Assembly (NCBI GenBank): GCA_015485125.1
Contig: WFUE01000138.1
Span: forward strand, 1-32,797
Source: Lysobacterales bacterium
GTDB taxonomy: Bacteria > Pseudomonadota > Gammaproteobacteria > Xanthomonadales > S139-57
Direction: 5' to 3'
DNA: 32,797 nt
Part shown: positions 28,599-32,797 of the stretch, in pieces
Layout: each line of letters opens with the position of its first letter
Numbering within the stretch: the first letter of the stretch is position 1
Notes under the pieces: model-generated
What the model was told of the DNA's origin: nothing
The model's database searches: none
What the model saw: the letters and a program-made list of their open reading frames with translations, nothing else
Made by a program: the position numbers and the translations under genes

Positions 28599-30444
28599 GA
28601 TGCAACCGCGCTTCGACACCGGTCGGCGCAGAACACTGGGGCAAAACCAGCTTTCCGGGCGTTATTTTCGTCGCCGGGCCTGGGTGGCCCTGCTGGGAGT
28701 CAGCCTGATTTTTCTCGGCTTGTTCGCTCGTTTCTATTACCTGCAGGTGGTGGAGCACTCGCGCTACTCCAGCCAGTCGGAGGCCAATCGGGTGCGCATC
28801 CGCCCCATCGCGCCCAACCGCGGGTTGATCTATGACCGCAATGGCATGCTGCTGGCGCGTAATGTACCGGCCTACCGGCTGGAAGTAATTCCCGAGCAGG
28901 TGGGCAATCTGGAGGCAATGCTGGAGGAACTGGCGAACGTCATCCCCTTGAGTGAAACCGATCGCAGCCGGGTGCAGCGGCTGCGCAAACTGCGCCGCAG
29001 TTTTCAGCCCATTCCGGTGAAATTGCGCCTGAGCGAGGCTGATCTTGCCCGTTTTGCCGTCAACCGCTACCGCTTTCCCGGTGTGGAGGCCGTGCCCTAT
29101 CTCAGCCGCGATTATCCGCTGGGGGAGACCATGGCCCATGTACTGGGCTATGTGGGCCATATTTCGGAAAAAGAACTGGCCCGGCTGGATGAAAAACGCT
29201 ATCGCGGCACCAACCTGGTGGGCAAGACCGGTCTGGAGGCCTACTACGAAGATGCCTTGCATGGCGAGCCGGGCTTTGAGGAAGTGGAAACCAATGCCCA
29301 GGGGCGGGTGTTGCGTGTGCTGCGACGGGAATTGCCACAACCCGGCGAGGACTTGCACCTGACGCTGGATGCCGGCTTGCAACAAGCCGCTTACAAGGCC
29401 CTGGGCCAGCACCGGGGCGCGGTGGTGGCGATGAAGCCCGAAAGTGGTGAAATCCTGGCACTGGTGAGCAAGCCCAGCTTCGATCCCAATCCATTCGTGA
29501 CCGGCATTCTGCATCGGGACTATCAGGCCCTGCTGAGCCAACCGGGGCGGCCATTGTTCAATCGTGCCCTGCTGGGTGGCTATGAACCAGGCTCCACCAT
29601 CAAGCCCTTCATGGCACTGGCCGGGCTGGCCAGTGGCGTGCTGTCGCCGGACGAGACCTGGTACTCCGATGGCACCTTTCAGATTCCCGGTCGCAAGCGC
29701 ATCTATCGGGATTGGAAAAAAGGTGGTCACGGCAAAGTAAATCTGGAGCAGGCACTGGCCCAGTCGGTCAACGGCTTTTTCTACAATCTCGCCTTGCGCA
29801 TGGGCATCGACCGTATCCACGACTGGCTGGCACCCTTTGGTTTCGGGCAAGTGACCGGCATCGACATGCCCAGGGAAAAACCGGGTCTGCTGCCATCAAG
29901 AGCCTGGAAGCGCGCGGTGCACAATAGCGCCTGGTTCGATGGTGAAACGGTGATCGTCGGTATTGGCCAGGGGCCGTTCGTGGTCACGCCCCTGCAACTG
30001 GCCTGGGCGGTGAACAAGCTGGCCAGTCGCAAGGACCTGCCGCGACCGCATCTGAAAAAAATGACAGAACCATGGCCTGAACAAAGCCGCCTGGATCGTA
30101 TTCCGCCAGCGGCCTGGGAGCAGGTACAAAAGGGCATGGTGGCCGTGGTCCATGGTGCCCATGGTTCCGCCCGTCGTATAGGTCATGGCCTGCCTTTCAC
30201 CATGGCGGGCAAGACCGGCACTGCCCAGGTATTCGGCCACAAGGAAGATGCCACCGACGAAGAACGCAAGGTGGAAGGGCTGGCCGAGCACCTCAAGCAC
30301 CATGCCTTGTTCATCGCCTATGCACCGGTGGAAAAACCACAGATCGCCGTGGCCGTGGTGGTGGAGCACGGCGGTGGCGGCAGCCGGGTGGCGGCACCGG
30401 TGGCGCGGGATGTGATCCGCTACTGGCTGGAGCGGCAACCATGA
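28588..30444 (+). CDS. mrdA: Penicillin-binding protein 2 (elongasome transpeptidase)
   Basis: PBP2 is the class B transpeptidase that cross-links peptidoglycan during elongation, acting with RodA. The 618-residue protein has an N-terminal membrane helix (about 30-50), the dimerisation/pedestal domain with NRGLIYDRNGMLLARN (77-92), and the transpeptidase domain. Its active sites are Ser336-x-x-Lys339 in EPGSTIKPF, SVN at 393-395 and KTG at 542-544. Catalytic residues are intact. The start is the GTG at 28588 or the ATG at 28600; either overlaps or abuts the mreD stop. Confidence 0.96.
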   Translation: MKPEMQPRFDTGRRRTLGQNQLSGRYFRRRAWVALLGVSLIFLGLFARFYYLQVVEHSRYSSQSEANRVRIRPIAPNRGLIYDRNGMLLARNVPAYRLEVIPEQVGNLEAMLEELANVIPLSETDRSRVQRLRKLRRSFQPIPVKLRLSEADLARFAVNRYRFPGVEAVPYLSRDYPLGETMAHVLGYVGHISEKELARLDEKRYRGTNLVGKTGLEAYYEDALHGEPGFEEVETNAQGRVLRVLRRELPQPGEDLHLTLDAGLQQAAYKALGQHRGAVVAMKPESGEILALVSKPSFDPNPFVTGILHRDYQALLSQPGRPLFNRALLGGYEPGSTIKPFMALAGLASGVLSPDETWYSDGTFQIPGRKRIYRDWKKGGHGKVNLEQALAQSVNGFFYNLALRMGIDRIHDWLAPFGFGQVTGIDMPREKPGLLPSRAWKRAVHNSAWFDGETVIVGIGQGPFVVTPLQLAWAVNKLASRKDLPRPHLKKMTEPWPEQSRLDRIPPAAWEQVQKGMVAVVHGAHGSARRIGHGLPFTMAGKTGTAQVFGHKEDATDEERKVEGLAEHLKHHALFIAYAPVEKPQIAVAVVVEHGGGGSRVAAPVARDVIRYWLERQP

Positions 30445-31535
30445 ACCCCCTGGCCCTGTTTCGCTGGCACCGGCCGGACTGGGTGCTGCTGCTGACCATC
30501 CTCGCCCTGTTCGGCTTCGGTCTGGCCGTGCTCTACAGCGCTTCCGGGCACAATCCGGATGTGGTGCTCAAGCAGGCGGTGCGCATGGCCGTGGGCCTGC
30601 TGGCCATGCTGATCCTGAGCCAATTGCGCCCGATACATCTCTACAACTGGGCGCCCTGGCTGTTTGCCATCAGCGTGGCCCTGCTGCTGGCCGTGTTGCT
30701 GATGGGTTCGGTCAGCAAGGGTGCCAATCGCTGGCTGGACCTGGGCTTTTTCCGCTTCCAGCCCTCGGAACTGATGAAACTGGCTCTGCCACTGATGCTG
30801 GCCCGGTCATTGGCCCGGCGGCCACCGCCACTGGCCTGGCGTGATCTGCTTCAGGCACTGGCCTGGATGGGGCTGGCTGCCGCGCTCATCATCAAGCAGC
30901 CGGATCTGGGCACGGCCATCCTGGTGGTAGCCAGTGGTCTGTATGTGCTCTATCTGGCCGGGTTGCGCCGTCGGGTCATATTTACCACGCTGGTTCTGAT
31001 GCTGGCGGCCATGCCGGTGGTCTGGCGTTTCATCATGCATGACTACCAGCGTGACCGGGTGCTGACCTTTCTCAACCCGGAATCCGACCCGCTGGGCCGG
31101 GGCTGGAACATCATTCAATCGAAAATTGCCATTGGCTCCGGCGGCCTGTTCGGCAAGGGCTGGGGGCAGGGCACGCAAAGCCAGTTGGAGTTTCTTCCGG
31201 AACGGCATACCGATTTCATCCTGGCGGTGGTTGCCGAGGAATTCGGCCTGCTGGGCGTCAGTCTGCTGCTGTGTCTCTATGTAGTGTTGATCTATCGCGG
31301 CATGATCATCGCCATGGAAGCCAGCACGCCGTTCAACCGCCTGCTGGCCGGCAGCCTGACCCTGACCTTTTTCACCTATGTGCTGGTCAATGTGGGCATG
31401 GTCTCCGGTCTGTTGCCGGTGGTGGGCGTGCCCTTGCCGTTGATTTCCTACGGCGGCACTTCCATGGTCACCCTGTTGACAGCCTTCGGCATGATCATGG
31501 CCGTGGCCGGCGACAAACCCTTTCTGCATCGTTAG
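30441..31535 (+). CDS. rodA: RodA, SEDS-family peptidoglycan glycosyltransferase
   Basis: RodA polymerises glycan strands in the elongasome with PBP2. The 364-residue multi-pass protein has the SEDS signatures GSVSKGANRWLDLGFFRFQPSELMK, IIKQPDLGTAILV, KIAIGSGGLFGKGWGQGTQSQLEFLPERHTDFI and GVPLPLISYGGTSM. About ten membrane helices are expected. It starts in an ATGA overlap with mrdA. In many gammaproteobacteria mltB and rlpA follow; here a diguanylate cyclase with its own promoter follows. Confidence 0.97.
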   Translation: MNPLALFRWHRPDWVLLLTILALFGFGLAVLYSASGHNPDVVLKQAVRMAVGLLAMLILSQLRPIHLYNWAPWLFAISVALLLAVLLMGSVSKGANRWLDLGFFRFQPSELMKLALPLMLARSLARRPPPLAWRDLLQALAWMGLAAALIIKQPDLGTAILVVASGLYVLYLAGLRRRVIFTTLVLMLAAMPVVWRFIMHDYQRDRVLTFLNPESDPLGRGWNIIQSKIAIGSGGLFGKGWGQGTQSQLEFLPERHTDFILAVVAEEFGLLGVSLLLCLYVVLIYRGMIIAMEASTPFNRLLAGSLTLTFFTYVLVNVGMVSGLLPVVGVPLPLISYGGTSMVTLLTAFGMIMAVAGDKPFLHR

Positions 31536-31562
31536 CCGGGGCCAATGGCAGGCGCGGCGAAG

Positions 31563-31594
31563 TTTTGCCGCTTCTGCCGGCAAAGGCGGCAAAA
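31563..31594. promoter_or_regulatory. 32-bp dyad upstream of the sigma-54 promoter
   Basis: TTTTGCCGC (31563-31571) and GCGGCAAAA (31586-31594) are perfect inverted arms around the palindrome TGCCGGCA (31575-31582), all on the same centre. It lies about 58 bases before the predicted transcription start. It may be an activator site for a sigma-54 enhancer-binding protein, or a stem after rodA; there is no T-run for a terminator. Confidence 0.6.
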
Positions 31595-31609
31595 TCTTGA
31601 CGCTTTTGG

Positions 31610-31626
31610 TTGGCACGAACCTTGCT
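31610..31626 (+). promoter_or_regulatory. Sigma-54 (RpoN) promoter of the diguanylate cyclase gene
   Basis: TTGGCACG, AACC, TTGCT fits the sigma-54 consensus TGGCACG-N4-TTGCW at every defined base. The invariant GG (31612-31613) and GC (31624-31625) are ten bases apart. Start of transcription is expected near 31637, giving a leader of about 28 bases to the ATG at 31665. Confidence 0.85.
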
Positions 31627-31632
31627 GGACAA

Positions 31633-31654
31633 GTATACATCCGCCAATGTATAC
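31633..31654. promoter_or_regulatory. 22-bp palindrome across the predicted transcription start
   Basis: GTATACAT, CCGCCA, ATGTATAC is a perfect 8-bp inverted repeat with a 6-base spacer. It covers the predicted +1 of the sigma-54 promoter and ends just before the ribosome binding site. The position suits a repressor; which one is unknown. Confidence 0.7.
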
Positions 31655-31664
31655 GAGGTTCGAC

Positions 31665-32564
31665 ATGACCCAACTGGCAACGGCCACCGGCACTGCAACG
31701 GTCATCCACAAGCCCGAGACACATCTGCCCGCTCAGCCCGCGGGTACCCCCGAAACGTGGCAACAACTGCGCGTGGATTTGCTGGAAGTGCTGCAGACCT
31801 CCCTGGATGTGCCCACCCTGTTGCAACGCTTTCTGCAGCATGTGCAACCGGTCTATGGTCTGGAAGGTTGCCGCCTGCAAACCCGGGACAACCGTCACTG
31901 GCTGGCCGGTGACGAAGGCCTGTTTGCGCTGGAAGTCGAACTGGAAGTGGACCGGGAGCTGATCGGCACGCTGAGCCTTTCCCGCGATCACCGTTTTGCC
32001 CGGGAAGAACGGCTGCAACTGAAAGCACTGGCCCAGACCCTGCGTTTTCCCTTGTACAATGCCCTGGAATACCAGCGGGTACGCAAGGCCATGTTCACCG
32101 ACGAGCTGACCGGCCTGAACAACCGTCATGCCTTCGAGCTGAGCCTGCAACAGGCCATGGAAAGGGCCCGCCGCCAGCAACAGCCTTTGGGCATGATGGT
32201 GCTGGATCTGGATCACTTCAAGGCCATCAACGACCAGCAGGGCCACGCCGAAGGCGACGCCGTGCTGCGGCAACTGGCCCGCGCCATGGAAGCCGCCACC
32301 CGCGATGCCGATCTGCTGTTCCGTTTTGGTGGTGACGAATTCGTCATCCTGCTGCCGGATACCGATTCAAAGGGCCTGGAAAAAGTCGCCCAACGCCTGC
32401 AACAGACCGTCGCCGAGGCCAGCCAGGCTCACGGCACCCCCTTCACCATCAGCATGGGGCTGGCCAGCTGGCAAAACAGCATGAACGGGGCAAGCCTGTT
32501 CCGGCAAGCGGATGCCGCCTTGTATCGGGCGAAGGAGAAAGGGCGCAATACCTACAGCTTCTGA
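31665..32564 (+). CDS. GAF-like/GGDEF diguanylate cyclase
   Basis: The 299-residue protein has no membrane segment. After a low-complexity N-terminus (1-30) comes a GAF-like sensory region (about 35-140), then a GGDEF domain (about 143-299). The active site is GGDEF at 222-226. An RxxD inhibitory site (RDAD, 213-216) lies five residues upstream, so it should be an active, product-inhibited cyclic-di-GMP synthase. DELTGLNNRHAF (146-157) and DLDHFKAINDQQGHAEGD (181-198) are intact. The start at 31665 is supported by GAGG at 31655-31658 with a 6-base spacer; an in-frame ATG at 31647 lies inside the palindrome. Ligand of the sensory domain is unknown. Confidence 0.93.
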   Translation: MTQLATATGTATVIHKPETHLPAQPAGTPETWQQLRVDLLEVLQTSLDVPTLLQRFLQHVQPVYGLEGCRLQTRDNRHWLAGDEGLFALEVELEVDRELIGTLSLSRDHRFAREERLQLKALAQTLRFPLYNALEYQRVRKAMFTDELTGLNNRHAFELSLQQAMERARRQQQPLGMMVLDLDHFKAINDQQGHAEGDAVLRQLARAMEAATRDADLLFRFGGDEFVILLPDTDSKGLEKVAQRLQQTVAEASQAHGTPFTISMGLASWQNSMNGASLFRQADAALYRAKEKGRNTYSF

Positions 32565-32704
32565 TTTGGGCGGCTTGGTTTTGAGCGGCTTGTTTTCCGC
32601 CATACGGCGTTGGAGGGGATGCACTCGTCGGTCACATACTGGAATGTATGCTCCCTCCTCGTTTATCCCCTCCGCCTTGTCTGGCAAAAAACCGCTCGCC
32701 CAAA
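32565..32704. repeat. 140-bp inverted-repeat intergenic element
   Basis: Nested inverted arms are visible: TTTGGGCG/CGCCCAAA (32565-32572 and 32697-32704), GAGCGG/CCGCTC (32583-32588 and 32692-32697), GGAGGGGAT/ATCCCCTCC (32612-32620 and 32665-32673) and a central CATAC/GTATG hairpin (32635-32650). It starts right after the cyclase stop codon and could act as its 3' stem structure. No protein is encoded. It looks like a REP- or MITE-like dispersed element. Confidence 0.65.
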
Positions 32705-32729
32705 ATGGGTGCTGGTAGAAAGGGAAATG

Positions 32730-32797
32730 GGCGGCTTGTTTTCCGTATCTCTGCGTTGCACGGGCTGCCTCACTCGGTTGCCGTTCGTAGTCAATAC
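32730..32797. repeat. Start of a second, related repeat copy, cut by window edge
   Basis: GCGGCTTGTTTTCCG at 32731-32745 repeats 32585-32599 exactly and both are followed some bases later by GCGTTG. A third variant of the core lies at 32570-32582. The inverted partner, if any, is beyond the window. Confidence 0.5.

Follow-up and report, generated by a model that had tools for sequence, protein, structure and literature searches.

Bacteria use c-di-GMP as a "settle down" signal, and the diguanylate cyclases that make it are commonly encoded dozens to a genome, with the timing of each rarely known. The stretch of DNA analysed here (the window; 32,797 nucleotides, the entire contig C138 of a draft Lysobacterales genome) carries one such gene behind the rod-shape operon mreB-mreC-mreD-mrdA-rodA, which raises the question of the programme under which this particular cyclase is produced. 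We consider it likely that the gene encodes a DgcS-like cyclase of the polar-flagellar sigma-54 cascade, with FleQ/FlrA or FlrC as its activator, and that the enzyme would be made together with the flagellum.

The predicted protein, read as a soluble cyclase of 299 aa (31665..32564, forward strand), consists of an N-terminal region of about 140 residues without a Pfam family and a GGDEF domain (PF00990, E 3.4e-48). In the family alignment its FRFGGDEF motif and the other invariant columns are intact, and five residues ahead of the GGDEF motif it carries an RxxD motif (RDAD, R213-D216), of which the R is invariant and the D nearly invariant among the relatives. By these features it is predicted to be an active diguanylate cyclase with a putative RxxD product-inhibition site, in line with the initial annotation, which had placed an intact GGDEF enzyme with such a site here. 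The best full-length NCBIfam model is NF051473 (DgcS), which matches residues 36-298 to model positions 30-289 at 195.4 bits and so falls short of the curated equivalog cut-off of 400. The ATG at 31665 appears to be the best start codon, standing six bases past a likely ribosome-binding site, GAGG, read from the sequence at 31655..31658 (forward strand). Other candidates are the 31545 start of the longest open frame and an in-frame ATG at 31647; the former is disfavoured by indels that the sister genome (G001) has in the stretch from 31545 to the inverted repeat described below.

Ahead of the gene lies a sigma-54 (RpoN) promoter of the -24/-12 type, TTGGCACG-AACC-TTGCT, at 31610..31626 on the forward strand, from which transcription is predicted to start at about 31637. 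The claim of a full RpoN consensus proves correct: in TTGGCACGAACCTTGCT the GG and GC elements are spaced by exactly 10 bp, and the window holds no other exact match to TGGCACG-N4-TTGC, nor any other with fewer than two mismatches. All 17 promoter positions are identical in the sister genome, whose cyclase protein is about 90% identical, and the flanks are variable. The genome encodes one copy of rpoN, yields ten matches in a search for enhancer-binding proteins, and contains nine matches to TGGCAYR-N4-TTGCW against none for the reversed pattern.

Sigma-54 control of the cyclase is strongly supported because the promoter is conserved across the relatives of the enzyme. Scanning the contigs of genomes for the cyclase gave 80 relatives, and sigma-54 sites were scored by a consensus weighted by hand in place of a trained matrix. 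A site scoring at least 15 was found near the gene start in 59 of 77 relatives, as compared to 6 of 606 other open reading frames of these loci, 1 of 77 when the reverse complement was scored and 0 of 77 with the sequence reversed. When the NCBIfam DgcS model was used as an independent query, 30 loci were recovered; a site scoring 14.7 or more accompanies 29 of them and is present at 17 of the 18 that score highest. Removing near-copies leaves 73 non-redundant members of the DgcS-like family, which share about 30-40% identity and are drawn from Pseudoalteromonas, Colwellia, Rheinheimera, the DgcS-model hits and others. The initial annotation had looked to relatives for conservation of the promoter, and this class of site is indeed kept: a strong one stands upstream of 65 of the 73, which leaves eight members of the family without it, and upstream of only 1 of 12 GGDEF genes from outside the family (Fisher P 4e-8). 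Most family members are set apart from the outgroup in a tree, with a support of 89 that is not decisive and with one outgroup row inside the family. The gene looks rare in its own order, where the full-length homologs in G043, G057 and G506 also carry a sigma-54 site. Retention in nearly all sampled relatives strongly supports the view that a sigma-54 promoter is a trait of this cyclase family. A regulon read from exact sigma-54 patterns in eight relatives was rejected, the matches being mostly chance ones inside genes.

Upstream of the promoter, the 32-bp dyad described in the initial annotation is present at 31563..31594 (TTTTGCCGC...GCGGCAAAA), with 28 of 32 positions symmetric, a grade reached by only two 32-mers in the window. 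Its right arm is overlapped by a flagellar-type candidate activator box, GCGGCAA-AATC-TTGACGC (31586..31603), which resembles a FleQ-like GTCAA-N4-TTGAC with one base changed in the left half, and a second, poorer copy with one mismatch, GCGGCGA-AGTT-TTGCCGC, occupies 31554..31571. Conservation of promoter, dyad and inverted repeat together, as initially envisaged, is nearly complete in the sister genome with its same gene order: promoter, box, inverted repeat and the right arm GCGGCAAAA are identical, and the left arm TTTTGCCGC has one substitution. In each of these two genomes the pattern GCGKCAANNNNTTGMCGC (GCGKCAA-N4-TTGMCGC) occurs exactly at two places, the cyclase promoter and the flrC-fliE promoter.

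Similar half-sites recur before the cyclase genes of other bacteria. Among 51 non-redundant relatives, the hexamer with the highest enrichment over the 150 nt preceding the site is CGTCAA (20 loci versus 2.1 expected); CGGCAA (16 versus 3.7) and ATTGAC (17 versus 2.6) are also enriched, and the homolog in G057 has CGGCAA-tcgc-TTGCCG as its upstream element. Position counts against a shared arrangement: the TTGAC/GTCAA sites of the relatives are most frequent 50-100 nt upstream and form a second group downstream, whereas the box in the window is just upstream of the -24 element. Compared with the published FleQ box, GTCAAT-N2-ATTGAC (PMC10723142), the flrC-fliE box fits in both its GTCAA and its TTGAC half, whereas the cyclase box (GGCAA-AATC-TTGAC) is one base off. 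The dyad is probably a cluster of degenerate flagellar activator half-sites, and the proposal that it could be the activator's site is supported in this modified form: it carries or overlaps half-sites common to flagellar sigma-54 promoters.

Three of the genome's own TGGCAYR-N4-TTGCW sites precede flagellar operons, namely flgB, fliL and flrC-fliEFGHIJ (FlgB and FliE were confirmed by NCBIfam; fliL and the remaining operon genes were named from sequence). The flgB promoter shares the core of the cyclase promoter including the spacer AACC (TGGCAxGAACCTTGCT) and has TTGACGC twice, 11 bp apart, while flrC-fliE has GCGTCAA-N4-TTGACGC just downstream of its sigma-54 site. Both promoters combine a sigma-54 core with TTGACGC boxes, as the cyclase promoter does, although they serve flagellar structural or regulatory genes and their boxes are differently positioned, downstream in the case of flrC. 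In the flagellar regions of 15 relatives, TTGAC/GTCAA lies no more than 150 nt upstream of 26 of 51 sigma-54-like sites; the exact CGTCAA/TTGACG, though common upstream of the cyclase sites, precedes only 5 of the 51.

A FleQ is encoded on another contig of the same genome (C166; L162:7256-8620), with P. aeruginosa FleQ as its best PDB match (E 7.5e-123). It keeps the equivalents of R185 and N186, while HFDG replaces LFRS; we take these residues to have roles in the response of P. aeruginosa FleQ to c-di-GMP. That response may be weak or lost in the present protein, and with LFRS replaced, a c-di-GMP feedback through FleQ is therefore not to be assumed. A protein on contig C296 of the sister genome was rejected as a FleQ, being another sigma-54 activator, and was left out.

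Several further observations concern the flagellar loci and the other sigma-54 sites of the genome. The flrC-fliEFGHIJ operon is apparently sigma-54 driven, with a perfect box downstream, in both genomes (L161:6399-6456 and L167:5653-5710), and flrB was not seen directly ahead of flrC in either (L161, L167). In many relatives (L233, L234, L235, L240, L243 and L244), TTGAC occurs about 30 nt past a sigma-54 site before fliE-like genes and is possibly an FlrC site; FleQ and FlrC sites are not separable by sequence here. Strong sigma-54 sites also lie beside a pil locus (L165:10165, TTGGCACGCTTCCTGCT) and beside an ntrBC locus (L166:12009, TTGGCACAATACTTGCG). The genome's sigma-54 set seems to comprise flagellum, pili, nitrogen and the cyclase.

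We considered other explanations of this arrangement. For instance, a sigma-70 promoter, TTGGCA-N18-TATACA, might drive the cyclase with the inverted repeat over its -10 as a repressor operator, which would be an ordinary design, and both of its hexamers are recognisable on visual reading, at 31610-31615 and 31634-31639. We regard this as very improbable: a sigma-70 consensus scan places no site in this region, the relatives keep GG-N10-GC and not TATACA, and a 1-nt indel in the sister genome shifts the TTGGCA-TATACA spacing to 19 and leaves the GG-GC spacing unchanged. Alternatively, the dyad might serve to end transcription of the mre-rodA operon instead of binding an activator, a somewhat less far-fetched but still doubtful reading. 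The dyad does sit just past rodA, and its RNA folds well (-17.8 kcal/mol), but it is followed by no U-run, a terminator scan found none here, and CGGCAA/TTGCCG is enriched before those cyclase genes of relatives that are not behind rodA, a divergent gene preceding many of these.

The position of the gene might also be taken as a sign of a functional link between the cyclase and cell-wall elongation, as the initial annotation had suggested. The gene does stand directly behind mreBCD-mrdA-rodA, the last gene of which, rodA (PF01098), occupies 30441..31535 on the forward strand, and two species of the genus share the rodA-cyclase order. The cyclase has its own promoter, however, and among the 80 relatives mre/rodA adjoin it only in the sister genome, so that the proposed coupling finds no backing in the wider family and deserves next to no credence. 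Elsewhere the gene is variously placed, often near tilS-accA-dnaE (names from sequence). The genes past the cyclase in the sister genome were read by eye as a PepSY protein, ComF and BioB, and neither mltB nor rlpA, which the initial annotation had associated with this position, was recognised among them. Since the neighbours vary and the promoter remains with the gene, the comparison favours regulation by flagellar state over a link to the rod-shape operon, and the position behind rodA is incidental. A closer competitor, and nonetheless an unlikely one, would keep sigma-54 and replace the flagellar activator with NtrC (nitrogen), PilR (type IV pili) or PspF. Proteins like all three are among the genome's ten activator matches as judged by reading their sequences, and the ntrBC and pil loci have adjoining sigma-54 sites too. 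Nevertheless, the motif which the cyclase promoter shares with those of flgB and flrC-fliE, and which is enriched in the relatives, is a FleQ-type half-site, and 31554-31610 lacks the NtrC consensus, which we take to be TGCACCA-N5-TGGTGCA. Where the initial annotation had left a choice between nitrogen and flagellar control, the half-sites in common with flgB and flrC-fliE favour the flagellar side and disfavour nitrogen.

For the preferred flagellar reading, we envisage that the cyclase would be transcribed from its own sigma-54 promoter once FleQ/FlrA or FlrC binds the cluster of CG[T/G]CAA half-sites at 31554-31603 and opens it, that the enzyme would be produced along with the flagellum, and that it would then supply c-di-GMP for a later switch from swimming to attachment. 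The promoter, its family-wide conservation and the half-sites common to flagellar promoters are observed directly; a flagellar activator is what we infer as likely, and activation itself, the identity of the activator and the physiological outcome are likewise inferred. If true, the promoter would connect swimming with the very signal that brings it to an end. A promoter class and an enhancer motif tied to one cyclase family despite a changing neighbourhood lead to the prediction that the enzyme is made with the flagellum.

Among known systems, Shewanella DgcS (NF051473) is like the present cyclase in full-length layout and size, and the DgcS-model hits have sigma-54 sites as well, most of them with GTCAA upstream; at 195 bits against a cut-off of 400 the two are not equivalogs, and the present gene differs in lying behind rodA. 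In Shewanella oneidensis, as we understand it in part from a review (PMC8314016), DgcS promotes biofilm on electrodes. A search of the open literature, with most subscription journals outside its scope, turned up no account of the dgcS promoter and none that places dgcS or its family under sigma-54. Control of c-di-GMP genes by sigma-54 and FleQ is already known in Pseudomonas putida, where FleQ and sigma-N activate the genes of three GGDEF/EAL proteins, PP1144, PP3711 and morA (PMC5026340). These resemble the present gene as c-di-GMP enzyme genes within a FleQ/sigma-N flagellar cascade, but by name and description (GGDEF/EAL) they appear to encode other proteins, and their sigma-N dependence is partial. 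Sigma-54 promoters have also been predicted for yeaJ and yhjK, two cyclase genes of E. coli, and are presented there as single-genome predictions (PMC3162934), as compared to the conserved trait of one cyclase family described here. We see even chances for a broader speculation, that the polar-flagellar sigma-54 cascade of Gammaproteobacteria has the whole DgcS-like family as an output of ancestral origin that has been widely retained; the programme that builds the flagellum would then also stock the cell with an enzyme that later stops swimming.

Two smaller features complete the locus. The inverted repeat GTATACAT-N6-ATGTATAC (31633..31654) lies over the predicted start; initially described as a perfect 22-bp palindrome, it in fact has two perfect 8-bp arms around an asymmetric 6-bp spacer, with 18 of 22 positions symmetric. 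The window has 29 inverted repeats of the same grade (loop up to 10), and the repeat alone is therefore weak evidence, although all 22 of its positions are identical in the sister genome. As a regulon operator it was rejected, neither genome having a second site with up to two mismatches; a gene-specific operator is possible. Beyond the cyclase gene, at 32567-32797, the unit GGGCGGCTTG[G/T]TTT occurs at 32567, 32582 and 32728, together with a 41-nt repeat at the contig end, which may be a dispersed repeat responsible for the break in the assembly.
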